DNA from: Clostridia bacterium
GTDB lineage: Bacteria > Bacillota > Clostridia > Oscillospirales > Acutalibacteraceae
Assembly (NCBI GenBank): GCA_017399175.1
Contig: JAFQEE010000053.1
Location: forward strand, 1-51,558
Length of the DNA: 51,558 nt
Direction: 5' to 3'
Shown here: one piece after another, positions 3,576 to 51,558 of the stretch
Layout: every line of letters begins with the position of its first letter
How positions within the stretch are numbered: the first letter of the stretch is position 1
The notes under the pieces: generated by a model
What the model saw: the letters and a program-made list of their open reading frames with translations, nothing else
Database searches by the model: none
Told to the model about the DNA's origin: nothing
Position numbers and translations under genes: made by a program

Positions 3576-4886
3576 TTAAAACATAATCTGGTTGATAATA
3601 CTTTCAAGATATTCTTGTCTGCCGCTTTCTACATTTGTCACATTACCCATTTCTTCCGCATAGGCAGAAAGTTCTGTAAGAGTAGCAGTACCACTTGTGA
3701 TTTTCTTGCCGATTTCACTGTTATATGAAGCGTATTTGTTCTTTACAAATTCGTCAATTCTGCCGTCTTCAATAATAGCGACAGCTTTCATAAGACCAAG
3801 AGCAAATGTGTCCATACCGAGAATATATGCGTGGAACATATCTTCATAGGTGTTACTTGGTCGGCGGTTTTTAGCATCAAAGTTAAATCCGCCGGTAAGT
3901 CCGCCTGCTTTGATTACTTCATACATACACATTGTTGCTTCGTAAACGTCAAACGGGAATTCATCTGTGTCCCAACCTAAAAGATAGTCACCTTGGTTAG
4001 CGTCGATAGAACCCAACATACCGTTTATTGCAGAAACACGAAGTTCGTGCTGGAAAGTATGTCCTGCAAGGGTGGCGTGATTAGCCTCAATATTCATTTT
4101 GAAATCTTTGTCAAGACCATATTGACGTAAGAATCCGATTGCAGTTGCAGCATCGAAATCGTATTGGTGCTTCATTGGTTCCTTTGGCTTTGGCTCAATG
4201 TAAAAGTCACCAGTAAAGCCTATTGAACGACCGTATTCTACTGCCATTTTCATAAGTCTTGCAATGTTTTCCTGTTCAAACTTAACGTCTGTGTTAAGGA
4301 GAGTTTCATAACCCTCTCTGCCACCCCAGAAAACATAACCTTTACCGCCAAGCTTAACAGTAATGTCAAGAGCCTTTTTAATCTGTGCAGCCGCAAAGCA
4401 GTAAACGTCAGCAGAATTTGTACTGCCGGCACCATTCATAAAACGTGGGTTTGAGAACATATTTGCAGTACCCCAAAGGCACTTAATGTCAGTACCTTGC
4501 ATTTTTTCTAATATGTAGTCAGAAATCTCGTCAAGTCTGCGGTTAGTTTCTTTAATGTCGTCTGCTTCAGGCACAATATCAACGTCATGGAAACAGAAAT
4601 ACTTAACACCTAATTTTTCCATAAACTCAAAACCTGCGTCAACCTTTGCTTTTGCGTGTTCCATTGTGGCTTTTTCACTATCAAATGATTTGTCAGCAGT
4701 ATCTCTGCCGAACATGTCTGTTCCTGCAGCACAAAGATTATGCCACCAAGCCATTGCAAAGGGGAGATGCTCACTCATTTTCTTTCCTAAAATAACCTTG
4801 TCTGCATCATAAAACTTAAACGCAAATGGATTTTTACTGTCTTTTCCCTCGTATTTTACTTTGTCAATAAAATTAAAGTATGCCAT
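3576..4886 (-). CDS. xylA: Xylose isomerase
   Basis: A 436-residue cytosolic isomerase converting D-xylose to D-xylulose, full length for the longer (class II) type. Recognisable stretches are [28 protein letters not shown] (active-site His), [31 protein letters not shown] (metal ligands) and GWDTDEFP. I chose the ATG before AYFNF because AAAAGGAGA sits 9 bases upstream of it; a TTG nine bases earlier is almost inside that ribosome site. It follows the sulfatase by 33 bases and precedes xylB in one minus-strand operon. Confidence 0.95.
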
Positions 4887-4919
4887 AATTTCCAATCTCC
4901 TTTTAATTTGTTTTAATAT

Positions 4920-6515
4920 TTATATATTGAATTTCTTTTTAACCAAATCAATAAATTGTGAGGCAGTTTTGCCTGTGAGCGATATTGCACCTGTTGCAAT
5001 TTTTCCAAGGAATAATGGAACGCCTACGGATGCGATATTGTTCTGTAGTAATTTATCTGTAAATCGGTCATCATCTTTTGTGGGGACGCTGTCACAGGTT
5101 TTCATATACCACAAAAGCATTTCCTCTTTCATCTGTGCGATTATATCCTTGTACTGCTCATCATCAATGCGATTGATACTTTCACCTTCACTGAGCACAT
5201 AAAACTCGTCTTTTTCGTAAAGTCGCATTACATATTTGTACTCTTTTGAGCGAATCATAGCAGCCTTGGTATGAGTTCCGTCCTCTTTAGATTGCAAAAG
5301 AATACGGGGAGCATAGTGACCGTCTTCGTTTATGAAATGATCCATTTCTGTACATTGAGTTTCGCCTAAAAGTCGTCCACCCTCGCTGAAAACATATTCA
5401 CGGTGAGGAGTACTCCTATCTTTAAGAGATGGCACGACACTCTGTGAATAACTGAGTCTGTCACATTTTATTCCTGCCAATTCATAAACTGTTGCACAAA
5501 GGTCAGTAAGTTCCACAAGATTACTGTTTATACCTGTATCAGCTTTGATATTTTTAGGCGGTTTAATGATGAATGGTACATTGACAAGGCAATCGGGGAA
5601 ACAGTTTTGACACTTCTCAACAATACCGTAGTCAGTGGTGTAGTCACCGTGGTCGGAAATGACAATTATGGCAGTGTCATCATAAATTCCCTCATTTTTA
5701 AGAGTTTCAACAATTTTGCCCAATTGGTCATCAACTTTAGCGCACATTGCAAGATACACACGACGAATTTCATTAAATCGTTCTTCGCTGTAATTTGTTA
5801 TACCAAGAGTATCACGAAGGCCTGTTTCCATTAAAGGTTTACCGTCAGTATCCTTAATTGTGGGAATTCTTTGTTGCAAATTGCTTTCATTAATCAAGTC
5901 ATAATATTTCTGCTCAATTTGATACGGCGGATGTGGAAAATTAAGTCCCACGAACATAAAGAAAGGTTTACTGTCAGGACGTTTTTTGATAGCTCTGATT
6001 GCTGAATCAACCGTTAAATCGTCCTCATTTTTGATTTCTCTGCCGTTTTTGTTTTCTGGGATTATACCGTCCATAAAGGAATAATATGTATCGCTACCTT
6101 TTTCGCCACGCTGTCCTTTAACCAAAGTTATAGGTGTTTTAACACGGTCATACATAAGGTATTTATCAATGGTTTTCCTATGATGTTTTTTGTGCTGTCC
6201 TGCCATTAAGTCGCCACGAGTTGAAGAAATAGTATAATAACCTGCTTTTTTCATATCGGTAAACAGGTTTTCTTCGTCGGGATGCAAAAGATATGACATG
6301 GTTCTGTGACCGTTGGTATGCGGATAATTTCCGGTCATAAATGAACAACGGCTTGGTACACAAACAGGACTTTGAGCAAAGCAGTTTTCAAAAGAAACAC
6401 CCTCTTTACTCATAGTATCAAAGTTCGGAGTATATGATGCTGAATTGCCCAAATGATGAAGAGCATCAGCACGCATCTGGTCGGGGTTAAAAATGATAAT
6501 ATTAGGTTTATTCAT
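4920..6515 (-). CDS. Cysteine-type sulfatase
   Basis: A roughly 530-residue arylsulfatase-family protein without a signal peptide. The N-terminus has the metal-binding NIIIFNPDQMRAD and the sulfatase signature C-V-P-S-R-C-S-F-M-T-G near residue 52, where the first Cys must be converted to formylglycine by a maturase not seen in this window. IVISDHGDY near residue 290 supplies more metal ligands. First gene of the operon. ATG is preferred over a GTG nine bases upstream because GGTGA gives it a weak ribosome site; neither start is strong. Substrate unknown: a sulfated sugar or aromatic sulfate. Co-transcription with xylose genes and a uronate-type lyase hints at sulfated, xylose-containing oligosaccharides. 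Confidence 0.85.
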   Translation of the reverse strand: MNKPNIIIFNPDQMRADALHHLGNSASYTPNFDTMSKEGVSFENCFAQSPVCVPSRCSFMTGNYPHTNGHRTMSYLLHPDEENLFTDMKKAGYYTISSTRGDLMAGQHKKHHRKTIDKYLMYDRVKTPITLVKGQRGEKGSDTYYSFMDGIIPENKNGREIKNEDDLTVDSAIRAIKKRPDSKPFFMFVGLNFPHPPYQIEQKYYDLINESNLQQRIPTIKDTDGKPLMETGLRDTLGITNYSEERFNEIRRVYLAMCAKVDDQLGKIVETLKNEGIYDDTAIIVISDHGDYTTDYGIVEKCQNCFPDCLVNVPFIIKPPKNIKADTGINSNLVELTDLCATVYELAGIKCDRLSYSQSVVPSLKDRSTPHREYVFSEGGRLLGETQCTEMDHFINEDGHYAPRILLQSKEDGTHTKAAMIRSKEYKYVMRLYEKDEFYVLSEGESINRIDDEQYKDIIAQMKEEMLLWYMKTCDSVPTKDDDRFTDKLLQNNIASVGVPLFLGKIATGAISLTGKTASQFIDLVKKKFNI

Positions 6516-6567
6516 TGTTTTCACCGATTTCTTCAGGATTTATGTCTTTCATGAAGTGTTTAAATAA

Positions 6568-6596
6568 ATTATACCAATTACACAGAAAAAATGCAA
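6568..6596 (-). promoter_or_regulatory. Promoter of the sulfatase-xyl-lyase operon
   Basis: Minus-strand TTGCAT (6591-6596), 17-base spacer, TATAAT (6568-6573). Both boxes match the housekeeping consensus well and transcription would begin about 45 bases before the sulfatase start. Confidence 0.8.
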
Positions 6597-6612
6597 TTAT
6601 AATATGACAATA

Positions 6613-6732
6613 AAAAGCGTTGCATAAGGGAGTGGATATTTCCCCAATGCAACACTTAATTCTTTTAAATGGCTTGAATGATACGATTTTTACAGTAAAA
6701 CAACGATAGGCAGTGCATTTCGGTGTACTGTC
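6613..6732 (+). repeat. Dispersed intergenic repeat, copy 1 (divergent)
   Basis: Hairpin with GCGTTGCA and TGCAACAC arms (6617-6624, 6648-6655) enclosing GGGA...TCCC, then the tail TTTTAAATGGCTTGAATG and AAAACAACGATAGG. These match copies at 7.6, 33.3 and 50.9 kb. A further 9-bp hairpin (6709-6732, loop TTTCGG) ends just before the cassette promoter. It lies between the sulfatase operon and the hydrolase gene and could also act as a terminator. Confidence 0.75.
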
Positions 6733-6743
6733 TTATGTTTTTA

Positions 6744-6773
6744 TGTTGCTTTTTGTTGTGTGAGTGGTATAAT
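6744..6773 (+). promoter_or_regulatory. Cassette promoter, copy A
   Basis: TTGCTT (6746-6751), 16-base spacer, TATAAT (6768-6773). The 30 bases are identical to 28793-28822 behind the serine recombinase and differ by one base from 51219-51248. Here no recombinase sequence remains upstream. It drives the hydrolase gene. Confidence 0.8.
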
Positions 6774-6831
6774 TATCTTGATAAATAAGAATTTGCAGAA
6801 TTTCTTGAGTAAAAGGTGGTGCAGAAACATA

Positions 6832-7575
6832 ATGAAGGCAGTCGAGTACGGTAAAAACAATAAAGATGTTATCATTTTACTTCATGGTGGCGGTTTGTCT
6901 TGGTGGAATTATAAAGAAGTTGCAGAAATACTTGCAGACCGTTTTCATATAGTTATGCCCATATTAAACGGTCATTCAGGAAGCGGAGTTCCTTTTATTT
7001 CAATAGAGGACAATGCAAGAGAAATCATTTCATATATTGATGAAAATTTTGGAGGTCATGTTTTATTGGTTGGCGGTTTGTCGCTTGGAGGACAGGTGCT
7101 TGTGGAAATGCTTTCACAGAGAAAGAATGTTTGCGAGTTTGCAATTATTGAAAGTGCTTTGGTGTTGCCTATGAAGTTGACTGCAGCTATTATAAAACCG
7201 ACTTATGATATGTGCTATCCGCTTATAAAAAAGATGTGGTTTGCTAAGTTGCAATTCAAGGCATTGCACATAAAAGCAGAACTTTTTGAGAACTATTATT
7301 CGGATACAGTCAACATTACAAAGGAAGATATGATTGCATTTTTGATGGCAAATTCCAATTATAGCGTTAAAGATAGGCTTGCTGATTGTGAGGCTAAAGC
7401 ACTTGTCTTGGTCGGAAGCAAGGAACAGCCTATTATGAAGAATTCGGCTCAAAAGATTACCGATTGTTTACCGACGGCAAGGTTGGAAATTATGAAGAAT
7501 TACTATCACGGAGATGTCAGCATCAATCATTCCAAACAATATGTAGAAAAACTATTACAACTTATAAATACGTAA
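6832..7575 (+). CDS. Alpha/beta-hydrolase
   Basis: A 247-residue alpha/beta-hydrolase fold protein, cytosolic. It shows the oxyanion-hole LLHGGGLSWW near residue 16, the nucleophile elbow GLSLGG near residue 84, and a late His in NYYHGD near residue 228. The open frame extends 24 codons further upstream, but those codons run over the promoter -10 box, so the ATG behind AAAAGGTGGTG is the real start. It stands alone between two repeat copies and is not obviously part of either glycan operon. Substrate unknown (ester or lactone hydrolysis is typical of the fold). Confidence 0.8.
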   Translation: MKAVEYGKNNKDVIILLHGGGLSWWNYKEVAEILADRFHIVMPILNGHSGSGVPFISIEDNAREIISYIDENFGGHVLLVGGLSLGGQVLVEMLSQRKNVCEFAIIESALVLPMKLTAAIIKPTYDMCYPLIKKMWFAKLQFKALHIKAELFENYYSDTVNITKEDMIAFLMANSNYSVKDRLADCEAKALVLVGSKEQPIMKNSAQKITDCLPTARLEIMKNYYHGDVSINHSKQYVEKLLQLINT

Positions 7576-7600
7576 ATTCCAATTTGTCAATTTCAGTAAA

Positions 7601-7846
7601 ATAACGATTATCAGTAATTTAACGATAGGTTAGATAGATTTTCTATGTAATCAACTAAATAACACATAAAAAGCGTTGCAGAAGGGAGCAGTGATTTCTT
7701 CAATGCAACGCTTAATTTTTTTAAATGGCTTAAATGCTATATAAAACAACGATACCACTATCAACACAAATTGTATCAATAGTGGTATCTAATTTGGCAT
7801 TGACTACGCTATTTGATACAATTCGTCGTTTTTAGGATAGCGTTGC
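7601..7846 (+). repeat. Dispersed intergenic repeat, copy 2 (full length)
   Basis: Starts 25 bases past the hydrolase stop. In order: an AACGAT-rich left module (7601-7672), hairpin with AGCGTTGCA/TGCAACGCT arms (7671-7713), AAATGGCTTAAATG tail, a second hairpin with 11-bp GATACCACTAT arms (7751-7789), and a final AGCGTTGCA at 7838-7846 that repeats the first hairpin arm. The copy at 33253-33502 matches it along its whole length. Confidence 0.85.
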
Positions 7847-9333: not shown

Positions 9334-10145
9334 AAGATATTTTAACTTCCCCTTTTGTGGAAGAGATGAAAAAGACTACTGCTAATATGTATCGTCTTGG
9401 TTGGGACGAAAGAAATGGTGGCAACATCAGTTATATGCTTGATGAAAATCAAGTTAAAGAATACCTTGACCTTGATAAGGTTATCCGTACAATCCCTACT
9501 GGCTTTGACGCAACTGACCTTATCGGTAAAATCTTTATCGTTACAGGTACAGGAAAATATTTTAAAAATGTTGAAAGTGACCCAGAAACAAACCTTGGCA
9601 TCATCCGTATTGCTAAAGACGGCACAACAGCAGAGCTTCTTTGGGGATATAAAGATAACAGTAAGTTTACAAGTGAGCTCCCGGCACATCTTATGAGCCA
9701 TATGGCAAGGCTTAAGGTTGACCCTGAAAACAGAGTTATAATGCACACTCATCCAACCCATACACTGGCTATGAACTATGTGCATGAGCTTGACGAAAAG
9801 AAATTGACTCATACTCTTTGGGAAATGTGTACCGAATGTATTGTTGTTTTCCCTGACGGTGTAGGTGTACTTCCCTGGATGCTTTGCGGTACAAACGAAA
9901 TCGGTGAGGCAACGGCAAAGAAAATGGAAGAATTCAGACTCGTTGTTTGGGGAATGCACGGAATTTACGGTGCAGGAAAAACAATGGACGAAACCTTCGG
10001 ACTCATAGAAACCATTGAAAAGGCTGCACAGATTTATATGCTGACAGCACATTTACCAAGAATAAACACTATCAAAGATGAAGAAATGGTGGAGCTTGCG
10101 GAGTTCTTCGGTGTCAATTACAGAAAGGATTTTCTGAATATATAA
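9330..10145 (+). CDS. rhaD: Rhamnulose-1-phosphate aldolase
   Basis: A 271-residue class II aldolase of the RhaD/AraD family. GNISY (residues 31-35), TSELPAHLM near 115-122 with the acid Glu, the zinc-binding HTHP at 139-142 and a third His in WGMHGIYGAG near 208 are visible. It splits L-rhamnulose-1-phosphate into dihydroxyacetone phosphate and lactaldehyde. Translation is coupled to rhaA by ATGA overlap. A rhamnulokinase gene, normally found with these two, is absent from the window, as is a lactaldehyde reductase. Confidence 0.94.
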   Translation: MKDILTSPFVEEMKKTTANMYRLGWDERNGGNISYMLDENQVKEYLDLDKVIRTIPTGFDATDLIGKIFIVTGTGKYFKNVESDPETNLGIIRIAKDGTTAELLWGYKDNSKFTSELPAHLMSHMARLKVDPENRVIMHTHPTHTLAMNYVHELDEKKLTHTLWEMCTECIVVFPDGVGVLPWMLCGTNEIGEATAKKMEEFRLVVWGMHGIYGAGKTMDETFGLIETIEKAAQIYMLTAHLPRINTIKDEEMVELAEFFGVNYRKDFLNI

Positions 10146-10182
10146 TCAACCCGACAAACAATTATTTGCGGAGGATGAATTT

Positions 10183-11397
10183 ATGAATGTAAAGGAATAT
10201 ATCGAGAATAATTGGGATAATACAACCCGTTTATTTACAGAGGATGATGATACATTAATAGGCTTGCCGCATCCCTATACTGTGCCCTGTATAGAAGGGA
10301 AATTTCAGGAAATGTATTATTGGGATGTTTATTTCACAAATGTTGGTCTGATTAAATCTGGACGCTTGGCACAGGCAAAAAACAATGTTGATAATATGTG
10401 CTATCTCATAAACAAATTCGGGTTTATGCCTAATGGTAACCGTACATATTATCTTTCTCGTTCACAACCACCTTTTCTTTCACAAATGGTTCGTTGCATT
10501 TATGAGCAGACAGGAGATACCGAGTGGCTTGATGAATGCTACAAGGCTCTTGAAAAAGAGTATGAATTTTGGGAAAATGAACGACAGACGCCCTGTGGTC
10601 TTAACCGATATTACGGTAAATTCTCCCACGATGAACTGATGAATTTTTGCAATGTTTTATGCAAACGATTCAATATGGAAAAGCCTGATGATAAGTGTGT
10701 TGCAGAAAAATACGGTCAGGCTATGTATTCCTTTGCCGAAAGTGGTTGGGATTGCAACAGCCGTATGGGACTTGACTGTTATAATTATGCTTGGGTGGAT
10801 TTAAATGCTTTGCTTTTCGGTGTGGAAATGGATATGGCGTTTTTTTCTGCCGAGCTTAAAAACGGACGCGAATCAATATGGACCGAAAGAGCAGAGAACA
10901 GACGAGGTCGTATGAAAAAGCTTTTATGGAATGATGCGGTGGGTGCTTTTTGTGACTATGATTTTATCGTCTGTAAGCAAGCTGATATTATATCGGCCGC
11001 ACAGTTTTATCCGATGTTTTCAGGTGTATGCACTAAAGAGCAGGCTGAACGCACAGTTGAATTGTTACCGAAAATAGAATTTGAATTTGGTGTGGCTTGT
11101 TGCGAAAAAAGAGACGATTTATACGATTTGCAGTGGGACTACCCCAACGGATGGGCTTGCCTGCAATATTTTGTAGTGCACGGGCTTTTGCGTTACGGCT
11201 ACCGCAAGGAAGCACTTCGCATCGCTGAAAAATATAAGCGTTTAGTGGAAAAAGTCTTTGAAGAAACCGGAAAATTATGGGAAAAATACGATGTTACAAC
11301 GGGCACTGTTTCACATAATAAAGAATATGAAACTCCTGCTATGATGGGGTGGACGGCCGGTGTTTATATTGATTTTTGTTCCTTGACGGGAGAATAA
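10183..11397 (+). CDS. Trehalase-like glycosidase (GH37-type)
   Basis: A 404-residue (alpha/alpha)6-barrel glycosidase with both trehalase-type signatures: GKFQEMYYWDVYF near residue 45 and LQWDYPNGWACLQY near residue 315. GWDCNSRMG near 190 corresponds to the catalytic-Asp region. No signal peptide, so it acts inside the cell. Good ribosome site (GGAGGA, 8 bases before ATG). Its place after rhaD suggests it trims imported oligosaccharides rather than free trehalose; GH37-like proteins in such loci can have other substrates, so the exact activity is open. Confidence 0.75.
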   Translation: MNVKEYIENNWDNTTRLFTEDDDTLIGLPHPYTVPCIEGKFQEMYYWDVYFTNVGLIKSGRLAQAKNNVDNMCYLINKFGFMPNGNRTYYLSRSQPPFLSQMVRCIYEQTGDTEWLDECYKALEKEYEFWENERQTPCGLNRYYGKFSHDELMNFCNVLCKRFNMEKPDDKCVAEKYGQAMYSFAESGWDCNSRMGLDCYNYAWVDLNALLFGVEMDMAFFSAELKNGRESIWTERAENRRGRMKKLLWNDAVGAFCDYDFIVCKQADIISAAQFYPMFSGVCTKEQAERTVELLPKIEFEFGVACCEKRDDLYDLQWDYPNGWACLQYFVVHGLLRYGYRKEALRIAEKYKRLVEKVFEETGKLWEKYDVTTGTVSHNKEYETPAMMGWTAGVYIDFCSLTGE

Positions 11398-11451
11398 ATT
11401 TAAGAAGAGATAACTGTAAACAAAGAAAACAATGATTTAAGGAGTATTAAT

Positions 11452-21237: not shown

Positions 21238-22503
21238 ATGTTGAAAAAAATAATTTTAATTGTGTTAGTAGTATGTATTGTTAATCTTGTGGCAGGAATA
21301 ATTTATTTTGAAGTTGAACCTGAAAACACAAATATCGACTACTCCTCTGCTGATTCACAGAAAACAACAGACACAACAATAAGATTCAATTCTAATGGTA
21401 AGCTCAAAATATTACATATTGCCGACACCCATCTTGATAATGATAAGCATTTTGATTCATCAATATGGGTTATTGCTAATGCTTGTGATATTGAAAAGCC
21501 TGACCTTGTTGTACTTACAGGTGATAATACACATCCTAACGAAGACCCTGAAGAAACAAAAAAGCTTATAAATGCACTTATGAATATCTTTGAATCAAGA
21601 AACATTCCTGTTGCTGTAACCTTTGGTAATCACGATTCAGAAGAAGGACCAATGTCAAGAAAAGATATTATGGAATATTACAAGACATTCTCTTGTGTAA
21701 TATCTGCAGGTGATGAAACAAATTTCAAAAACTGCGCAACATTCAATATTCCTGTTTTGGCTTCTGATAGTGACAAGGTAAATTTCAATCTTTGGGTATT
21801 TGACTCAGGTGATTATGACGAAGATGAGCCAAGACATTATGACAGAGTAAGAACTGAACAAATTGAGTGGTATAAAGAAACTTCTGCAAAGCTTAAAGAA
21901 GAAAATGGTGGCGAAACTGTCAACTCAGTTGTTTTCCAGCATATTATTGTTCCTGAAATTTATGATGTTCTTAAAAAGGTTGATTCAAAGAAGCTATTTT
22001 CAGAAAAACATCTTTATAATGAAGATGAATATTATATGTTCGACCCAGAAAATACAAACTATGGTACGCTCAATGAATATCCATGTCCGGGTTATTACAA
22101 CGATGGTCAGTTTGATGCTTTGGTTGAAACAGGCGATGTGCTTGCAATGTTCACAGGCCACGACCATACAAACGCATTTGGTGTAAGAAACCAGAATATT
22201 GATATTTTCACCTCTCCAATGACACGCTATAAGGGATTAGCTTATACAACTCAATATGGTTATCGTGTGGTTGAAATTGACGAAAACGACACTTCAACAT
22301 ATACAACAAGAGTTGAACGTCTTTATGATGTGTTTGACCACGACTATGCAAAGGAACAAAAGGAAAGTGGCGATAAGTATTCAAAGAAAATCTCTTACGA
22401 GCTTGCAGTCAAGGGGAGAACACAAAAATTATTCACTGAAATTTATCAGTCAGTAGTTGAGTTTTTTACAGGTAGAACAGTAACATATCCAGATTATAAA
22501 TAA
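21238..22503 (+). CDS. Membrane-anchored metallophosphoesterase
   Basis: A 421-residue calcineurin-like phosphoesterase with an N-terminal transmembrane anchor (about residues 4-24 after MLKK), so the catalytic domain is probably extracytoplasmic. Metal-site motifs are complete: HIADTHLD, VVLTGDNTHP, VTFGNHDSEEG, VFQHIIVPE and FTGHDHTNAFG. Last gene of the operon, 16 bases after the GH13 gene, with GGGAG as ribosome site. It resembles the anchored enzyme at 40909 in the second glycan locus. Likely removes phosphate or cleaves a phosphodiester from a glycan before uptake; substrate not determined. Confidence 0.85.
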   Translation: MLKKIILIVLVVCIVNLVAGIIYFEVEPENTNIDYSSADSQKTTDTTIRFNSNGKLKILHIADTHLDNDKHFDSSIWVIANACDIEKPDLVVLTGDNTHPNEDPEETKKLINALMNIFESRNIPVAVTFGNHDSEEGPMSRKDIMEYYKTFSCVISAGDETNFKNCATFNIPVLASDSDKVNFNLWVFDSGDYDEDEPRHYDRVRTEQIEWYKETSAKLKEENGGETVNSVVFQHIIVPEIYDVLKKVDSKKLFSEKHLYNEDEYYMFDPENTNYGTLNEYPCPGYYNDGQFDALVETGDVLAMFTGHDHTNAFGVRNQNIDIFTSPMTRYKGLAYTTQYGYRVVEIDENDTSTYTTRVERLYDVFDHDYAKEQKESGDKYSKKISYELAVKGRTQKLFTEIYQSVVEFFTGRTVTYPDYK

Positions 22504-22507
22504 AAAA

Positions 22508-22553
22508 TTAAGCGTTGCACAAGGGACAACATAATCCCAAATGCAACGCTTAT
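22508..22553 (+). repeat. Dispersed repeat hairpin, copy 4, serving as operon terminator
   Basis: Arms AGCGTTGCA (22511-22519) and TGCAACGCT (22542-22550) around GGGA...TCCC, the same hairpin as at 7.7, 33.3 and 51.0 kb. It begins right after the anchored metallophosphoesterase stop and lies between that gene and the convergent phosphatase gene, so it can stop transcription from both sides. The left module and tail are missing. Confidence 0.8.
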
Positions 22554-22582
22554 TTATACACTTTGTTTACTTAAAAGAATTT

Positions 22583-24009: not shown

Positions 24010-24915
24010 TTAAGCCACCGTACCATTTCTCCAAGCTGCTGAACCGTTAAGGTGTTTACACAAGTGTTCTCTGCAGTTTTTGAATTCATCACCAACCAAG
24101 CCGATTCTGTTAAGGTATGTTCTCATTGCAAACTTTTCATTTTCGGTTTGGTTTTTCTTTGTACTTGCTTTCTGTTGTGTTAATGCTTGATGGTTAAGTG
24201 CTAATGCTAAAACTATGTAACTTCTTATCTTGCCTGCGTGAAGTGTACTGTCAAATCCTCTTAACTCTACTGTGTGGTTACCGTGGAAGAAACTGTGTAA
24301 GTTTAAAAAATGATATCTGCTTTTATGATAGTGAGTGTTTCTGGATTCACAAAAGCCTGCATACCAAATGTTCTCGATTTGAGAAAAGGTTGCAGGCTTT
24401 TTTCTGTTTATTGTTTCAACTAATTGTTTATCCATCTTCTTACACCATTTTGTTCTTGCCTCATCAATTTGAAGGCTTTTGTAAAGCAAGTCATTCTTTG
24501 ATGCAATGATGTTTATGAAATTTCTTATTGACCTTGGTGTATGGTCTGCTCCATTAAGGTGGATGTGAATTCCACAAGAACCCTCATCAACAGATGCTCC
24601 ACCTTTACGGAGTTTTCTGATGAGTTCTTGTAAAGTTTCAATGTCTTCTCTGTAGGTTAAAACTGGTGTAACCAATTCACATTTATAAAGGTCAGATGCG
24701 TGAACCTTGCATCCATCAACTTTCTTCAAAGGGTTAATGCTACCATCATACATTACTGTCCATTTTCTGCCGGTGTTATCAACTACTGTTTTCTTGTCAT
24801 AAAAACCACCGTCACTTGTAAATGAACTTTCAAAGTGGTTTGCCATAATCTCGGCTGCTTTTGTTCTTGTAATGCCTGTGAACTCAATCTCAATACCAAA
24901 CTTTGCTTTTAACAT
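24010..24915 (-). CDS. Amidoligase-family protein
   Basis: A 301-residue COOH-amine ligase-like protein. It starts MLKAKFGIEIEFTG, the typical first strand of the amidoligase (glutamine-synthetase-like) fold, followed by GSCGIHIHLNGADH near residue 113 and HTVELRGFDSTLHAGKI near 225 with the conserved Arg. ATP-dependent amide-bond formation is expected; the modified target is unknown. The open frame continues 58 codons upstream, but that part is low-complexity leader with repeats and a terminator. The ATG behind AAAGAGG is therefore used. It precedes the cyclotransferase gene on the same strand. Confidence 0.78.
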   Translation of the reverse strand: MLKAKFGIEIEFTGITRTKAAEIMANHFESSFTSDGGFYDKKTVVDNTGRKWTVMYDGSINPLKKVDGCKVHASDLYKCELVTPVLTYREDIETLQELIRKLRKGGASVDEGSCGIHIHLNGADHTPRSIRNFINIIASKNDLLYKSLQIDEARTKWCKKMDKQLVETINRKKPATFSQIENIWYAGFCESRNTHYHKSRYHFLNLHSFFHGNHTVELRGFDSTLHAGKIRSYIVLALALNHQALTQQKASTKKNQTENEKFAMRTYLNRIGLVGDEFKNCREHLCKHLNGSAAWRNGTVA

Positions 24916-24960
24916 TTCTGTGTACCTCTTTCTTGTCTTTTGGTAGTCACATATTACCTC

Positions 24961-25004
24961 TAAAGTACACATATATCCAGACAAATTTAAGGCGTAAAGT
25001 ACAC
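24961..25004 (-). promoter_or_regulatory. Direct repeats upstream of the amidoligase gene
   Basis: The ten bases TAAAGTACAC occur at 24961-24970 and again at 24995-25004, 34 bases apart (about three helical turns). They lie 46-90 bases upstream of the amidoligase start, where a repressor or activator could bind. No matching promoter boxes are clear. Confidence 0.4.
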
Positions 25005-25051
25005 AATCTTTATTGATACAATTTGTGTATTTTTGTGGGTTGTTATATAAC

Positions 25052-25088
25052 AAAAAAAGACTACACAAGAACGAATCCTGTGTAGTCA
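25052..25088 (-). terminator. Intrinsic terminator in the amidoligase upstream region
   Basis: A 9-bp stem of GACTACACA and TGTGTAGTC, followed on the minus strand by seven T. It would stop minus-strand transcripts arriving from the unknown operon at 25.5-27.1 kb, or act as an attenuator if the amidoligase transcript starts further upstream. Confidence 0.7.
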
Positions 25089-25149
25089 AATATGAATATT
25101 TAATTTTATGTTTTTACTAGTTCATCATACGTATGTTTCATGGATACCA

Positions 25150-25178
25150 TTGATTTTTTAAAATCTTTGTGGTATACT
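25150..25178 (+). promoter_or_regulatory. Promoter of the candidate ncRNA
   Basis: TTGATT (25150-25155), 17-base spacer, TATACT (25173-25178). Start of transcription is expected near 25185, just before the large palindrome. No credible protein begins downstream. Confidence 0.65.
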
Positions 25179-25203
25179 ACAGACGGAGTAGAGTGGAATT
25201 TTA

Positions 25204-25253
25204 AAATCCGTCTGCTCTCAGACCGTTATAACGGTCTGAGAGCAGACGGATTT
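25204..25253. repeat. Perfect 50-bp palindrome
   Basis: Inverted repeat centred at 25228/25229 (GTTA|TAAC) with 25-base arms and no mismatch. The GC-rich core (for example CTGCTCTCAGACC) stands out from the surrounding AT-rich DNA. The inner eight-base sequence TCCGTCTG also has an inverted copy at 25180-25187. It could form an RNA hairpin or be a DNA-level site such as an origin or resolution site. Confidence 0.85.
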
Positions 25254-25288
25254 GTTGTTTGTTGTGTTGTTTGTACGGGTTTCCTTTC

Positions 25289-25321
25289 GGGCGGCTCGTT
25301 TCTCGACGGGTCGTCTTTTTT
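25289..25321 (+). terminator. Intrinsic terminator of the candidate ncRNA
   Basis: GGCGGCUCGUU pairs with GACGGGUCGUC-type bases through 11 pairs, several of them G-U, around a UCUC loop, followed by six T. Orientation is plus only because the G-U pairs do not form on the other strand. Confidence 0.65.
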
Positions 25322-25459
25322 ATTTGTAGTAATATACTATAAACTCGTTATTTCAAAGTACTAATATTACCATTTAATCTAATGAAAAACCTATTAATAT
25401 TCGATGTTATGAAAAGTGTTGTTATTTAATAAAATTAACCTTTCGGAATATATTTTAAT

Positions 25460-26116
25460 TTAATAATGTTTATTATTTTGTAAAAACGTAGGAATTAGAC
25501 TTTCCCATTTAAATGTACCCATGTATGTTGGATATTTTGATGCTAAATAATAATGGGTGCTTTGCTCAATAAAGATTTTATCTTTTATGTCAGCCTTCTT
25601 GGTGAGCCATAAAATAAAATTCACCTCATCCGTGCACTTTTGACGAGCTATAGCAGATGGATATAAAAGTTCATTATGCCGAGATATTCCGTAACATGCA
25701 TCAGAATACAGTAGTTTTCCGCGTTTAGCCATTAAGATACGCAATACATCTTCTCGTTCATATTTAGCCATAATGTCTCGCACCTTTTTAGAATATACTC
25801 CTTTGCCATAAAAATATTCTACCTGTTCTGGGGTTAAACAAATAAACTTTTTATCTCGTTGCCAATGCATTTCCTTATATGCCTCGAATACCTCGTCACA
25901 AATTGCATCATAGTTTGATAAGTCATACACCAATAATTCAACTTCTTCTTCAAGTTTTTTATCTGTTACCTTATTTAACCAAATTTGTTTACGTTGGGCA
26001 TCCGACATAGCGTTTTGTTCATATGTTGTTCTCGCTTTTTTAGTTTCAATCTTTTCATTGGCAATCTTGCTACCCCAAAACAAACCGCCAAATAAGGCTA
26101 TAAATATTTCAAACAT
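25460..26116 (-). CDS. Unknown protein with N-terminal hydrophobic segment
   Basis: A 218-residue protein I do not recognise. Residues 2-17 (FEIFIALFGGLFWGSK) are hydrophobic and could be a short membrane anchor, followed by a charged helical stretch (NEKIETKKARTTYEQNAMSD) and an alpha-helical domain of mixed composition ending in KWESLIPTFLQNN. Start lies one base after the preceding gene's stop, so it is translationally coupled. Last of four unknown minus-strand genes. No catalytic motif visible. Confidence 0.7.
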   Translation of the reverse strand: MFEIFIALFGGLFWGSKIANEKIETKKARTTYEQNAMSDAQRKQIWLNKVTDKKLEEEVELLVYDLSNYDAICDEVFEAYKEMHWQRDKKFICLTPEQVEYFYGKGVYSKKVRDIMAKYEREDVLRILMAKRGKLLYSDACYGISRHNELLYPSAIARQKCTDEVNFILWLTKKADIKDKIFIEQSTHYYLASKYPTYMGTFKWESLIPTFLQNNKHY

Positions 26117-26117
26117 T

Positions 26118-26348
26118 TTATTCCGCAGCGTCAGCGATATAATTTTCAGCAGATTCTATACTATTTAATCCATCTTCTAAATTACTAATCGCTGCTTCCA
26201 TCCTTTCATATCTATCACTATATTGCAAATTTTCTGGCATATTATCAAGACAGTCTTGTTCATCATCTAATACTTCTGATACAATATTTGATGCCTGATT
26301 TAATAAATTACGCACTGTTTTAAGTTTATCTCGTTTAGTTTTATTCAT
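26118..26348 (-). CDS. Small coiled-coil protein of phage type
   Basis: A 76-residue, strongly acidic, helical protein: MNKTKRDKLKTVRNLL, then DDEQDCLDNMPENLQYSDR and a final run of Glu/Asp-rich heptads. Proteins of this layout (basic helix, DEQ...DNMPENLQ, acidic helix) are common among small phage and mobile-element genes of clostridia; their role is unknown. Ribosome site AAAGGAG fixes this ATG rather than one ten codons upstream. Confidence 0.75.
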   Translation of the reverse strand: MNKTKRDKLKTVRNLLNQASNIVSEVLDDEQDCLDNMPENLQYSDRYERMEAAISNLEDGLNSIESAENYIADAAE

Positions 26349-26362
26349 TACGGAACGCTCCT

Positions 26363-26707: not shown

Positions 26708-26717
26708 GTTTGCCTCC

Positions 26718-27251: not shown

Positions 27252-28754
27252 GTGGCAGGTTATGCTCGTGTATCTACTGATAGTGATGAACAGTTCACAA
27301 GTTATGAGGCACAGGTGGATTATTACACCAACTACATACAAAGCCGACCTGAATGGGAGTTTGTTGGGGTATATACTGATGAAGGTATTTCAGCACTTAA
27401 CACCAAGAGAAGAGAAGGCTTTAAAAGAATGATAGCAGATGCCTTAAATGGAAAAATAGACCTCATTGTAACCAAGTCTGTCAGTCGTTTTGCAAGAAAC
27501 ACAGTAGATAGCCTTACAACTGTTCGTAACCTGAAAGACAAAGGTGTTGAGGTCTATTTTGAAAAAGAGAATATATGGACAATGGACTCAAAGGGAGAAT
27601 TCTTAATAACCATAATGTCATCTATTGCTCAAGAAGAAAGTCGTTCCATTTCTGAAAATGTTACCTGGGGACAGAGAAAACGATTTGCAGATGGTAAAGT
27701 GAGTATTCCATACAAGCATTTCCTTGGTTACAAGAAAGGAACGGATGGTTTGCCTGAAATTGTACCGGAAGAAGCAAAGATAGTCCGTGATATTTACAGA
27801 ATGTTTATGGAAGGTATGACAACTTGTGCAATTGCAAATCACTTGACGAAAAACGAAATACCAACACCTTCAGGTAAACAAAAATGGCAACGACAGACGG
27901 TGGAGAGTATTTTGCGAAATGAAAAGTACAAAGGTTCTGCACTATTACAGAAGAAATATACCGTGGACTTTCTGCAGAAAAAGATGAAAGTGAATGAAGG
28001 TGAAGTTCCACAATATTATGTAGAACACAGCCACCCAGCTATCATAGTCCCTGAAGAATGGGGACGTGTGCAGTTAGAACTGAATAGAAGAAAGGATGAT
28101 AACAGACGAACGTTGTGTAACAGTCCATTTGCAGGAAAACTTATTTGTGGTGATTGTGGTGAAATCCTTGGTTCAAAGGTATGGCACAGTAATAGTAAAT
28201 ATCGCAGAACAATATGGCAATGTAATGCCAAATTCAAAGGTGAAAAGAAATGCACCACACCTCATTTGTATGAAGATGACATCAAGAAATGTTTTGTAAC
28301 AGCATTGAGTCAGTTAATCACGGACCGTGAAGCATTGTTGGATGATGGCAGAATGATAATGCGTCAACTTGAAGACACAACTGCCATTGATACTGAATGT
28401 GAAGAACTTATTCAAGAGATGGATGTATTGATAGAACTCATCAAAAAATGTGTGAATGAAAATACTACACAGACTATCGACCAGGAAGAATATATCAGCA
28501 AGTACAACTCACTTGTAGAACGACACGAAAAGTTGCAGAGTCGTTATGATTACCTGAAGAAAAAGAAAGAACGACGATTACAGCAATTCGATAAAATGAG
28601 TTATTTCGTATTCGCTGTCATAGAACTTGATGAGCTTGAATTACAGTTCAATCCGGCACTATGGCACACCACCATTGACCATGTAACTGTGTATGCAGAT
28701 GAACGATTGGTGTTTCATTTTAAGAATGGTAGTGAGGTTGAGGTGAGGATGTAA
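27252..28754 (+). CDS. Large serine recombinase
   Basis: A 500-residue site-specific recombinase. The resolvase-type catalytic domain begins at once with AGYARVSTDSDEQFTSYEAQ (nucleophile Ser8), then the recombinase domain (GYKKGTDGLPEIVPEEAKIV), a zinc-ribbon (CGDCGEILGSKVWHS...WQCNAK...C) and a coiled-coil-rich C-terminus. It cuts and joins att sites of an integrative element. Odd: relatives usually carry 15-40 residues before this motif. Here the in-frame residues upstream (VLPKASNKKRR) look coding but reach a stop at 27207 with no ATG, GTG or TTG, and the GTG has no good ribosome site. The 5' end may therefore be damaged. Confidence 0.85.
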   Translation: MAGYARVSTDSDEQFTSYEAQVDYYTNYIQSRPEWEFVGVYTDEGISALNTKRREGFKRMIADALNGKIDLIVTKSVSRFARNTVDSLTTVRNLKDKGVEVYFEKENIWTMDSKGEFLITIMSSIAQEESRSISENVTWGQRKRFADGKVSIPYKHFLGYKKGTDGLPEIVPEEAKIVRDIYRMFMEGMTTCAIANHLTKNEIPTPSGKQKWQRQTVESILRNEKYKGSALLQKKYTVDFLQKKMKVNEGEVPQYYVEHSHPAIIVPEEWGRVQLELNRRKDDNRRTLCNSPFAGKLICGDCGEILGSKVWHSNSKYRRTIWQCNAKFKGEKKCTTPHLYEDDIKKCFVTALSQLITDREALLDDGRMIMRQLEDTTAIDTECEELIQEMDVLIELIKKCVNENTTQTIDQEEYISKYNSLVERHEKLQSRYDYLKKKKERRLQQFDKMSYFVFAVIELDELELQFNPALWHTTIDHVTVYADERLVFHFKNGSEVEVRM

Positions 28755-28772
28755 AAATGTATATTTTATACG

Positions 28773-28803
28773 AAAGGCAGCAGTGTGAAAACTGTTGCTT
28801 TTT
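28773..28803 (+). terminator. Terminator of the recombinase gene
   Basis: Stem GCAGCAGT / ACTGTTGC with flanking A-T pairs (about 12 pairs) and loop GTGAAA, followed by T. Its right arm contains the -35 box of the promoter that drives the next gene. Confidence 0.75.
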
Positions 28804-28822
28804 GTTGTGTGAGTGGTATAAT
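28795..28822 (+). promoter_or_regulatory. Cassette promoter, copy B
   Basis: TTGCTT (28795-28800), 16-base spacer, TATAAT (28817-28822). Drives the HNH/DUF2971 genes. Confidence 0.8.
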
Positions 28823-28856
28823 ATTTATGATAAAACATAAAGGAAAGGGGCGTTTT

Positions 28857-29675
28857 ATGAGAGCCGTAAAACATCCTGGGAAATGTAGACTATGTGGTGA
28901 ATTGAAAGAATTAACACCAGAACATATACCACCGAAAAGTGCCTTTAATATTAACAATATAACAGTTTTACCATTCGAGGAAGTTTGCAAAACTCTAACA
29001 GGAGCCGATGGAAGAATGCCTTGGGATATAAACGGTTTGAAAGGAAAGGTGCAACAAGGCGGGCATAAAAAATATTGTCTTTGTAAGGAGTGTAACAACA
29101 ACACTGGGAATTGGTATATGAGAGCATATACCGATTTTGCAAAAACTGTAAATGCAATAATACAAATTGAACATTTGTTACCAGGAAATACATATTCATT
29201 TACCATAAAAGATTTATATCCATTAAGAGTTTTTAAGGCAATGATGACAATGATATGTGATTTGAACAATGATTGCCTTGGCGATTCTAACCTTCGTGAT
29301 TTCCTAATGACTAAAGAAAGTAATATAATAGACACATCAAAATACTCTCTATATATGTATTTAGTTTCTCCACAAGCGGTTAGAATGAGTGGTATTTCTG
29401 CCCAAGTGCACATTGATGACCCTAAAAACCCTGTTTTAGTTTCAGAAATGTCAGCATATCCTATTGGATTTGCTATGTATTTAGATAAGCCAAAAGACTA
29501 TACACCTTTTGGACTCAATGTTGATTGCTTTGCAGACGCAGATTACAATACAAAGTGTAATGTGCAATTTAGTGGGATTCCTTACTTGGATATAAACAGC
29601 CAATTTCCAATTGATTTTCGCTCAAAGGATGACATTATCAACTGCATTGTGGCAAACGAAGAATCTATGGAATAA
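28857..29675 (+). CDS. HNH-like zinc-binding protein
   Basis: A 272-residue cytosolic protein. C10-x2-C13 (CRLC), then LTPEHIPPKSAFN with H23, and C76-x2-C79-N (CKECNNNTGNW) form an HNH/treble-clef pattern like that of HNH endonucleases. The remaining 180 residues are not recognised. The frame runs 24 codons further upstream into the promoter, so the ATG after AGGAAAGGGG is chosen. First gene of a two-gene cassette with a DUF2971 gene 22 bases downstream. DNA cleavage is the expected activity of the motif, but only the metal-binding residues are visible. A role in defence or in element maintenance is inference. Confidence 0.65.
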   Translation: MRAVKHPGKCRLCGELKELTPEHIPPKSAFNINNITVLPFEEVCKTLTGADGRMPWDINGLKGKVQQGGHKKYCLCKECNNNTGNWYMRAYTDFAKTVNAIIQIEHLLPGNTYSFTIKDLYPLRVFKAMMTMICDLNNDCLGDSNLRDFLMTKESNIIDTSKYSLYMYLVSPQAVRMSGISAQVHIDDPKNPVLVSEMSAYPIGFAMYLDKPKDYTPFGLNVDCFADADYNTKCNVQFSGIPYLDINSQFPIDFRSKDDIINCIVANEESME

Positions 29676-29697: not shown

Positions 29698-30642
29698 ATG
29701 AATAATTTGAGTAAGTTAGATGAATTTCAAATTCTAATGAAAATGGATGCAAAATATTTACCAGATGAATATGTAAATGATATTTTTCATTATACATCTC
29801 CTCAGGGTTTTCAATCAATTTTATTCAAAAATGATGATTGCTTGACATTATGGGCAAGTCGTTTTGATTGCTTAAATGATGTTTCCGAAGGAACGATAGC
29901 AGAAGAAATTTTGAAGGAAGTTTGTGATGATTTATTGAGAGATAACAAAATTGATGAGTATCTCTATGAACTTTTTTCAAATGTGAAACCTCCACGAACA
30001 GCTCTGTTGCATTATACCGAAGGAGAATCGTTTAAAATCACTCGTCCAGAATACGATAGATATGTATGCTCTTTTTCTAAAAACAAGGACTCCTTATCCA
30101 TGTGGAATTATTATTCAAAAGGAAATCGGTATGAAGGATTTAATATAGGATTATATGCTCCAATTTTAAAAATATCACTTGAATCTCTTTTTAAGAATAT
30201 AGAAGCCGTTCCATATATTTTCCCAGTAATATATAATAAACAAGAACAAAAAAGTCTAATTGAAAAAATGTTACTGAAGCTTAAAGATTTATATCAAAAA
30301 GAAAGGGAGTCACAAATAAGATACATAGTATCCAATCGCTTGTTAGATTGGAGTCTTATTTTTAAAAAGGAATGCTTTCAGCACGAGGAAGAGGTACGAA
30401 TAATAATTTATATTGCTAAACGAGAACAAAAGATACCAGTAAAGTATCGGATGAATGCTGGTTATCTCGTTCCATATATTGAATTATGCTTTGATAAAGA
30501 ATGTGTGTCTGAAGTTGTTTTTGGTCCTTTGCAAATCGATGAAAAACAAAAAATGCACCAGGTTAAAGTGATGGAAGAACTACTACAGTCAAAAGAGTAT
30601 TCTGCTATTGTTGATTATTCAAAAATTCCTGTGCGATTTTAA
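29698..30642 (+). CDS. DUF2971-family protein
   Basis: A 314-residue cytosolic protein with the three recurring pieces of DUF2971: FHYTSPQGFQSILF...LWASRFDCLNDVSEG near residue 27, YVCSFSKNKDSLSMWNYYS near 120, and CFQHEEEVRIIIYIA near 230. Biochemical activity of this family is not established. ATG chosen because GATGAGG precedes it; the frame extends 29 codons further into the HNH gene, which would overlap it. Likely co-transcribed with the HNH-like gene from the cassette promoter. DUF2971 genes are frequent in bacterial accessory islands. Confidence 0.75.
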   Translation: MNNLSKLDEFQILMKMDAKYLPDEYVNDIFHYTSPQGFQSILFKNDDCLTLWASRFDCLNDVSEGTIAEEILKEVCDDLLRDNKIDEYLYELFSNVKPPRTALLHYTEGESFKITRPEYDRYVCSFSKNKDSLSMWNYYSKGNRYEGFNIGLYAPILKISLESLFKNIEAVPYIFPVIYNKQEQKSLIEKMLLKLKDLYQKERESQIRYIVSNRLLDWSLIFKKECFQHEEEVRIIIYIAKREQKIPVKYRMNAGYLVPYIELCFDKECVSEVVFGPLQIDEKQKMHQVKVMEELLQSKEYSAIVDYSKIPVRF

Positions 30643-30666
30643 TATTGTGCAATACATTTTCAGCCA

Positions 30667-30738
30667 TTTAACGATTTGCGGTAATTTAACGATAGGTTAG
30701 ATAGATTTTCTTAGTTATCAACTTAATAACCCATAAAA
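30667..30738 (+). repeat. Dispersed repeat, left module only (copy 5)
   Basis: AACGAT-rich left module as at 7601 and 33253, starting 25 bases after the DUF2971 stop. The following AGCGTTGCA hairpin is absent and replaced by an unrelated terminator hairpin. Confidence 0.75.
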
Positions 30739-30769
30739 ATCTCCTCACATTTTATGCTAGTGAGGAGAT
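30739..30769. terminator. Intrinsic terminator between convergent genes
   Basis: Perfect 10-bp stem ATCTCCTCAC / GTGAGGAGAT with a 4-base A run on the left for minus-strand transcripts. It overlaps the last codons and stop of the DUF4238 gene. Confidence 0.7.
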
Positions 30770-33235: not shown

Positions 33236-33252
33236 TTGACTATTTTTCAGCT

Positions 33253-33502
33253 GTTTAACGATTATCAGTAATTTAACGATAGGTTAGATAGATTCTCTTA
33301 CTAATCAACTTAATAAGCAATAAAAAGCGTTGCAAAAGGGAGTGGAGATACCCCAAATGCAACGCTTAATTCTTTTAAATGGCTTAAATGCTATATAAAA
33401 CAACGATACCACTATCAACACAAATTGTATCAATAGTGGTATCTGATTTGACATTAACTATGCTATTTGATAAAATTCATTGGTTTTACAGGTAGCGTTG
33501 CA
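33253..33502 (+). repeat. Dispersed intergenic repeat, copy 6 (full length)
   Basis: Same order of modules as copy 2: left module, AGCGTTGCA hairpin (33324-33368), AAATGGCTTAAATG tail, second hairpin with GATACCACTAT arms (33405-33443) and the closing AGCGTTGCA (33494-33502). It separates the accessory island from the second glycan locus, just past the end of the GH130 gene. Confidence 0.85.
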
Positions 33503-50880: not shown

Positions 50881-50891
50881 TTCCTTATACT

Positions 50892-51040
50892 GCATATCAG
50901 TAATTTAACTATAGGTGAGATAGAATTCTAACTAATCAACTTAATAACATATAAAAAGCGTTGCAAAAGGGGAGTAACATTTCCAAATGCAACGCTTGTG
51001 CTTTCTAAATGGCTTAAATGCTATATAAAACAACGATACC
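50892..51040 (+). repeat. Dispersed intergenic repeat, copy 7
   Basis: Left module (50892-50956, shorter by several bases), AGCGTTGCA hairpin (50954-50998) and AAATGGCTTAAATGCTATA tail ending at ACGATACCA. It begins 12 bases after the GH63-like stop and runs directly into the recombinase remnant, so the second hairpin of the full copies has been lost at the join. Confidence 0.85.
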
Positions 51041-51049
51041 ATTTCATGT

Positions 51050-51180
51050 AACTTGATAAGCTTGAATTACAGTTCAATCCGGCACTATGGCACACCACCG
51101 TTGACCACGTAACCGTGTATGCAGATGAACGGTTACTTTTTCATTTCAAGAATGGTAGTGAGGTTGAGGTGAGACTTTAA
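51050..51180 (+). pseudogene. C-terminal remnant of a serine recombinase
   Basis: The last 43 codons of a large serine recombinase (LDKLELQFNPALWHTTVDH, ending SEVEVRL and TAA), 93% identical in DNA over the block to the intact gene's end at 28624-28830. Most changes are silent, so it descends from a related recombinase under selection rather than from recent duplication. Everything before LDKLELQ is missing and replaced by a repeat copy. Confidence 0.85.
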
Positions 51181-51220
51181 AAATGTATATTTTATATGAA
51201 AGGCAGCAGTGTGAAAACTG

Positions 51221-51248
51221 TTGCTTTTTGTTGTGTGGGTGGTATAAT
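51221..51248 (+). promoter_or_regulatory. Cassette promoter, copy C
   Basis: TTGCTT (51221-51226), 16-base spacer, TATAAT (51243-51248). Overlaps a terminator hairpin (51199-51229) as in the intact copy and drives the zinc-ribbon gene. Confidence 0.8.
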
Positions 51249-51272
51249 ATTTATAGGAAGTTGGTGAGCGTT

Positions 51273-51558
51273 ATGGCTGAAAAGAAAGAAAAAAGATATG
51301 TGAGCGATAATGCTCAACTTATGGCTGAATGGAATTGGGAAAAGAATAACGAATTAGGGATTGACCCTAAAACATTAACTCTTGGTAGCGATAAAAAAGC
51401 ATGGTGGGTTTGTAACGAAGGACACGAATGGCAAGCATCGATAGGGCATAGAAGTCGTGGCCGTGGATGTCCTTATTGTGCAGGTCAAAAAGTTTTAAAA
51501 GGCAAAAATGATTTGCAAACGGTTAATCCAACTTTAGCTAAAGAATGGAATTATGAAA
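51273..51558 (+). CDS. DUF4379-type zinc-ribbon repeat protein (incomplete)
   Basis: Ninety-five codons to the window end. The repeat pattern LMAEWNWEKN, then DKKAWWVCNEGHEWQASIGH and RGRGCPYCAGQK, with the next repeat beginning at LAKEWNYEK, is typical of DUF4379 treble-clef zinc repeats. Cys/His pairs (C..GHEW...CPYC) are in place. Some relatives carry a nuclease-like C-terminal domain; whether this one does is outside the window. It starts with ATG behind TTGGTGAG and lies directly after the cassette promoter. Confidence 0.8.
   Translation, partial: MAEKKEKRYVSDNAQLMAEWNWEKNNELGIDPKTLTLGSDKKAWWVCNEGHEWQASIGHRSRGRGCPYCAGQKVLKGKNDLQTVNPTLAKEWNYE

Follow-up and report, generated by a model that had tools for sequence, protein, structure and literature searches.

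A short promoter-like block, often fused to a terminator-like hairpin, is repeated before unrelated genes in one lineage of a clostridial genus, and we consider it somewhat likelier than even (a probability of about 0.55) that this block is a reused, or 'mobile', promoter standing at joints where transcription units are exchanged, with both its activity and the mechanism of exchange being putative. This reading draws on observed repeat families, folds and a pattern of breakpoints in gene order. The block and a repeat that lies downstream of some of its copies do not form one fixed mobile cassette, as the first-pass annotation of this DNA had proposed.

The block and its reuse before unrelated genes

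The block, TGTTGCTTTTTGTTGTGTGAGTGGTATAAT, is identical at 6744-6773 and 28793-28822 of the window (the whole stretch of 51,558 nucleotides that was analysed) and recurs with one mismatch at 51219-51248; these previously reported positions were verified, and the three matches compare with none expected from 100 shuffles of the window. When up to three mismatches are allowed, these remain the only copies in the window's own genome (2.11 Mb, 72 contigs). The copies and the genes that follow them are:

6738..6790, + strand: block copy 1 (R1 model, E=6.3e-13)
6832..7575, + strand: alpha/beta hydrolase, the first cargo gene (Hydrolase_4, 3e-9; start picked by eye)
28786..28837, + strand: block copy 2 (R1 model, E=7.6e-14)
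28857..29675, + strand: cargo ORF, earlier called 'HNH-like'; no family match in Pfam or NCBIfam
29698..30642, + strand: DUF2971 protein, PDC-S31-like (Pfam 4.9e-8; PADLOC 1.5e-8)
51212..51264, + strand: block copy 3 (R1 model, E=6.8e-13)
51273..51558, + strand: DUF4379 gene, truncated by the contig end (Pfam 1e-19)

The first-pass annotation had described three cassettes with a shared promoter and different accessory genes. The hydrolase, DUF2971 and DUF4379 identities are borne out, whereas 'HNH-like' finds no support in Pfam or NCBIfam. The third case is sound as far as a block before a DUF4379 gene is concerned, but is cut by the contig end. The three copies are also not fully separate cases: their positions hold, but those at 28793 and 51219 share one 211-nt repeat (described below) and therefore do not count as two independent promoter copies. 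The promoter itself had been read as TTGCTT-N16-TATAAT. Its extended -10 element, TGgTATAAT, stands, but the proposed '-35' agrees with TTGACA at only three of six positions and the block is absent from the listing of the promoter-consensus scans at 6744 and 28793, so the promoter call rests on TGgTATAAT. We thus describe the constant part of the block as an extended -10 promoter-like stretch, TTGCTTTTTGTTGTGTGAGTGGTATAAT, whose activity is predicted.

A sequence-only model of the block (R1), built from nine copies, was searched against 39 genomes of the genus, with at most 145 first-look candidates scored per genome, so that misses are possible, and it returned at least 15 copies at E<=1e-6 in at least five of the 39 genomes (at least six in the own genome, G000, and at least three in G302, three in G314, two in G336 and one in G310). 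Six of the 15 lie outside the model-building set. A search of nine genomes with the model gave strong matches in G000, G302, G310 and G314 and none below E 0.01 in G327, G200, G098, G307 and G306, where the best match had E=0.0101; across 273,596 bases the match scores leave a gap between 21/30 and 26/30. This gap, together with the five of nine genomes without a match below E 0.01, indicates that the block forms a repeat family rather than reflecting a general consensus. The own genome was the only one to match in a draw of 300 family genomes (1/300), and one more exact match was found in the species collection, in a sheep-colon Clostridia MAG (JAFVTQ010000004.1).

Behind the 15 copies at E<=1e-6 stand 11 different first genes, which supports the proposal that one promoter-like block precedes various unrelated genes. 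Genes for the hydrolase, the HNH-like protein, an unknown protein of 300 aa, a GH2, a GH32, a rhodanese and a sulfatase each occur once; DUF4379, alpha-rhamnosidase and phytoene-desaturase-like oxidoreductase genes are seen twice, and an AAA protein gene is found once whole and once as a remnant (G314 C7). The oxidoreductase, GH32, rhodanese and sulfatase identities were assigned by eye. A sixteenth copy (G302 C1:110205, E 1.5e-6) stands before a Melibiase gene. A short promoter-like repeat that recurs before non-homologous genes in this way (15 copies, 11 genes) behaves like a mobile promoter.

A regulon could also leave a shared upstream sequence, in which case the operator for one regulator, present in these genomes only, would be made up of the conserved spacer together with a downstream dyad resembling TTATCTTGATAA. 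Conservation of the spacer and of the +1 region agrees with this, as does a family present in at least five of 39 genomes, but copies 2 and 3 and the copy at own C20:6841 have lost the dyad, there is no evident common pathway among the cargo genes, and conservation reaches into the ACTGTTGC arm of the hairpin described next, all of which leaves a regulon as an unlikely explanation.

A terminator-like hairpin fused to the block

In nine of the 16 copies that were folded, a terminator-like hairpin of the GCAACAGT/ACTGTTGC type with a T-run abuts the promoter-like stretch, and seven of these nine hairpins have a fold z below -3. The conserved stretch of the block begins with ACTGTTGC; the partner arm precedes it in the nine hairpin copies, and several other copies have the ACTGTTGC arm without the partner. 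A clear abutting hairpin is absent in seven of the 16, among them the copies at the G302 DUF4379 gene, own C20:6841, own C29, G302 C1:109605 and G336 C5, where folding gave none, and the G314 C13 copy, which has a weak hairpin (z -1.3). The seventh is the copy at 6744, with a different hairpin a few bases farther upstream. The promoter-like part is therefore constant and the terminator-like part frequent. The hairpins at block copies 1 and 2 of the window are:

6708..6733, + strand: terminator-like hairpin with T-rich tail, a few bases 5' of block copy 1 (11-pair stem; folded)
28770..28804, + strand: hairpin with its 3' arm formed by the beginning of block copy 2 (-20.1 kcal/mol, z -6.0)

The scan lists no terminator at 28793. 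G336 and G314 C6 share an identical 29-base hairpin, AAGCAACAGCCTAAAAACTGTTGCTTTTT, of which near-identical versions occur at own C20:173-205 and G302 C1:110193. A limited literature search found no paper on a repeated terminator fused to a repeated promoter in Clostridia, which is weak evidence of absence.

The AACGAT module and the cassette model

The first-pass annotation had the cargo of the two complete cases end shortly before the same AACGAT-rich module. The spacing is as described, with the hydrolase stop at 7575 followed by the module at 7601 and the DUF2971 stop at 30642 followed by it at 30667. That the module is the same at both places is true of the AACGAT part, but the copy at 30667 comprises only the first ~84 nt of a full module of ~245 nt. 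Its copies in the window, apart from one considered with the recombinase, are:

6607..6708, + strand: partial module (hairpin-1 segment), 5' of block copy 1 (module HMM, E=9.2e-19)
7590..7833, + strand: full module, consisting of the AACGAT segment, the GCGTTGCA hairpin, a second hairpin and TTGGCA-N17-TACAAT (HMM E=3.3e-72)
22468..22555, + strand: partial module (hairpin 1; E=1.6e-9; exact hairpin pattern)
30658..30741, + strand: partial module (AACGAT segment alone; HMM E=5.9e-16)
33244..33487, + strand: full module with no block-headed gene before it (87% to the copy at 7591-7834)

Between module copies the window also holds a small defence-like island, in which a kinase gene at 31632-33140 matching the anti-phage kinase Stk2 (PADLOC E=5.9e-220) adjoins DUF4238 and the PDC-S31-like DUF2971 gene.

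With a profile made from 12 copies and a cut-off of E<=1e-6, the module has 31 matches on ten contigs, and one more in G312. Its copies tend to end at segment borders and the GCGTTGCA hairpin stands alone at several places: the module is a composite, hairpin-bearing intergenic repeat, separate from the block. The exact hairpin pattern occurs on four of the 72 contigs of the own genome, and six of 30 relatives (the own genome included) have module matches, four of them strong. Hairpin-only pieces are also found between core genes, and one lies 3' of a gene that by eye resembles a pyrimidine biosynthesis gene, with no block there.

The module at 7590..7833 folds strongly as a single sequence (z -5.2) and carries a promoter-like site at 7794-7822. 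RNAalifold returned hairpin 1 only, with no pair changed on both sides, so the fold is not backed by covariation, and a conserved RNA structure was rejected; Rfam at gathering scores found no known RNA in the window. Module copies all point the same way within each of the seven contigs that have at least two matches (28 of the 31 matches at E<=1e-6), regardless of gene direction (own C25, C38 and C51 and related contigs). Reverse matches of the palindromic hairpins, present from E 8.4e-7 up in a first profile search, are gone at the final cut-off. In nine of 12 stretches the module orientation matches the GC-skew sign; a replication-strand bias is possible, with gene direction as a confounder.

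The model first put forward was that block, variable cargo and module are moved together as a single mobile cassette. Five units do have the block and a whole or partial module at their ends (own 6744; own 28793, partial; the G302 DUF4379 unit; G310 C12, partial and at a contig edge; G314 C13), and the four of 19 genus genomes that have strong modules are also those that have blocks (P 2.6e-4). The kinship of these four genomes can, however, explain the co-occurrence, and the module search in G336 covered two short loci. Of 16 block copies considered (the 15 and G302 C1:110205), with own 51219 and G336 C5 not judgeable where the sequence ends, only five of the 14 assessable ones have a module at the 3' end of the unit. 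The nine without are two on own C20, own C29, G302 C5, two on G302 C1, G314 C6, G314 C7 and G336 C38, although four of these (G314 C6, G314 C7, G336 C38 and own C29) sit on short contigs or stretches. On the ten module contigs 31 modules stand against eight blocks, the unit at 28793 carries a third of the module only, and the clearest candidate for a moved unit, that of the rhamnosidase (see below), has no module. With a module at only five of 14 blocks, a single unit bounded at its two ends by block and module is not borne out, and modules do occur at intergenic sites without the promoter, an outcome that the first-pass annotation had itself named as refuting its cassette; the module as the constant right end is not supported. 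Of the idea of a modular cassette with constant ends there remain a reused block and one block-plus-gene tract that has seemingly moved, but not the module end; movement as a single unit is improbable. No evidence of site-specific recombination at the block was obtained.

Breaks in gene order and putatively moved units

Contigs of G302, G312 and G314 were compared with six contigs of the own genome using HSPs of at least 500 bp and 80% identity; one of 18 homology ends was dropped as an edge of available sequence, leaving 17. For nine of the 17, a block or module is no more than 60 bp away in one or other of the two genomes, compared with 31 of 438 gene ends on these contigs when one genome is considered, an excess with a binomial P of 1.4e-4 (at 0.137 for two genomes) that has to be read with the facts that the contigs were chosen for carrying block or module and that the 17 ends are not independent. 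Between own C38 and G314 C13, for example, 9.8 kb are alike at 92% from a module hairpin to the hairpin segment of the next module, and the outer neighbours differ. G312 and the window are 90% alike in DNA from just 5' of the rhamnose isomerase (RhaA) gene, with different genes upstream; in G312 this homology sets in just past a hairpin, and in the window 91 bases beyond the module. At 10145-11437 the window has one gene more than G312, and this joint carries neither block nor module.

The clearest unit is that of the rhamnosidase on own C20 and G302 C5, which is 94% alike overall and whose homology starts no more than four bases from the upstream edge of the block. Identity is 0.91-1.00 over columns 400-2400 compared with 0.60 at both outer ends, and the 3' edge, near the gene end, is graded (0.82, 0.72 and 0.60 over the last columns). 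Other matches between the own genome and G302, outside DUF4379 repeats and modules, are at 67-82%, with the exception of 150 bp at 89% at a tRNA gene. Judged by these identities, this block-plus-gene tract may have moved between lineages. The oxidoreductase unit (92%) is no more alike than other DNA shared by the own genome and G314 (77-92%) and so may be vertical. More generally, the DUF4379, rhamnosidase, oxidoreductase and AAA genes each stand behind the block in two genomes, and the pairing of same block and same gene also fits plain inheritance. Among sulfatase orthologues (81-85%), the gene is preceded by the block in G336, by different sequence in own C25 and by a gene directly upstream in G302. 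On G336 C38, rhodanese, a small regulator-like gene and rhamnosidase are consecutive genes preceded by three block matches, one strong and two weak; the order in G302 is rhamnosidase then rhodanese.

Beside the oxidoreductase unit, a tRNA-Pro gene lies just 5' on own C20 (6981-7056), and a CCTGTCACGACCACC-like stretch precedes the unit in own C20 and follows it in G314 C6 (L034, about 4046-6960); this stretch is perhaps tRNA-end debris.

A possible mechanism

If the preferred reading of a reused boundary promoter is right, the block would be a dispersed boundary element between transcription units, which one lineage of the genus redeploys before unrelated genes, and in the hairpin-fused copies one sequence would end the upstream transcript and start the next. 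Block and module, where they stand at joints of gene order, would most likely offer short homology for swaps of transcription units. Through homologous recombination at these repeats a gene could travel with its boundary promoter, and units bringing their own start signal may be those that are retained after exchange. From the repeats, folds and breakpoints we infer terminator and promoter activity, and that exchange proceeds by homologous recombination. If the boundaries are joints, acquired genes would come already insulated and promoted, which, if true, would help to explain how single catabolic and defence genes are reshuffled in such Clostridia without disturbing their neighbours. The block is a concrete, testable case of promoter re-use inside one genus.

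A stronger version would be a lineage-specific and integrase-free exchange of cassettes, in which the fused boundaries would combine two roles, insulated stop/start signal and recombination joint. Single genes would then be plugged in between two boundaries, be expressed at once and come to form rows such as that on G336 C38. We offer this as a speculation with perhaps a modest chance of being right.

A serine recombinase beside the block

One gene of the window has the resolvase, recombinase and zinc-ribbon domains of a large serine recombinase, and its 3' end is repeated together with the block:

27252..28754, + strand: large serine recombinase (Resolvase 5.9e-36, Recombinase 3.9e-23, Zn_ribbon_recom 4.5e-11)
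28618..28828, + strand: 211-nt repeat copy A, recombinase 3' end and block (92% to 51044-51254)
50887..51045, + strand: module fused directly to the recombinase remnant (HMM E=6.1e-42; same junction in G314)
51043..51177, + strand: recombinase remnant, residues 456-500 (84% amino acid identity)
51044..51254, + strand: 211-nt repeat copy B, recombinase 3' end and block (92% to copy A)

The junction of module and remnant recurs in G314 C13, without a block; downstream of it lie an unnamed ORF and a gene called DUF4379-like for its similarity to the window gene. It is conceivable that the block or the sequence just 5' of it is an attachment site of the 27252 recombinase or its relatives, beside which cargo is delivered. 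Between the end of the recombinase gene and the block at 28793 there are 38 bases, and the 3' remnant precedes copy 3. Pieces of recombinase also occur on G314 C13 (77762) and own C25 (23152-23244), and on own C41 another recombinase reads in frame into DUF4379; such pieces recur at three joints and beside DUF4379, which makes a recombinase mechanism possible. A tblastn search with two recombinases of up to 600 bases 5' of the 16 copies, however, found significant pieces at only two, both belonging to one repeat. Relatives at 53-61% identity in G327 and G323 had no block in the following 400 bases (by eye), and recombinase relatives as carriers of the block were rejected accordingly. In the block copies, moreover, the sequences flanking any presumed core are shared on both sides, which is not the pattern of attL and attR. 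We regard an attachment site as having little chance of being the explanation, and prefer the reused boundary promoter.

The fused ORF on own C41 (L032, 5855-8851) reads from the serine recombinase in frame into four DUF4379 matches over 998 aa with no stop, and also has a weak, below cut-off match to the MTES_1575 nuclease. In the window, the recombinase is preceded on the opposite strand (24010-27116) by an amidoligase gene and by four small ORFs that match no Pfam family, with a GGACT gene farther out.

Comparison with known systems

The block fits the mobile promoters, or promoter propagation, of Matus-Garcia (2012) and van Passel (2014), as set out in a section of PMC8049555. Like them it is a short repeated promoter-like sequence before non-homologous genes, with spread by copying or transfer inferred; it differs in the repeated terminator-like hairpin to which this predicted promoter is often joined, and in the homology breaks that lie at it. 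The module, being short, intergenic, present in many copies (31 matches) and structured (z -5.2, no covariation), resembles the BOX and SPRITE kinds of repeat, of which the pneumococcal BOX is composite and SPRITE terminator-like in the part of PMC3049150 that treats them. By that description, and not by sequence, the hairpin of the block can be likened to SPRITE, as a dispersed intergenic hairpin followed by a T-rich tract, although its stems are shorter and a promoter-like stretch follows directly. The module likewise shares with BOX, as described there, separable segments, an intergenic position and a predicted fold, whereas no tandem middle unit was seen in it and some copies end in a promoter-like site. 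Transfer of intergenic regions independently of genes is among the topics discussed in PMC9944727. No exact match of the block pattern, the terminator piece or the module piece was found in viral contigs, and a viral origin of block and module was rejected.

Integron gene cassettes are single genes with a recurrent end sequence. Here the promoter is at the 5' end, and no tyrosine integrase stands beside an array in the own genome: PF00589 is found on C11, C16 and C39 only, and not on the module contigs C25, C38, C41 and C51. An integron reading was rejected, since none of these integrase genes shares a contig with the modules. GTTRRRY-like motifs were seen by eye. In G302 a tyrosine integrase gene (C1:108090-108704) lies ~0.9 kb from the block at C1:109605, and the row there (L108, about 4055-6254) runs from this gene through the block, the AAA gene and a weaker block to the Melibiase gene.
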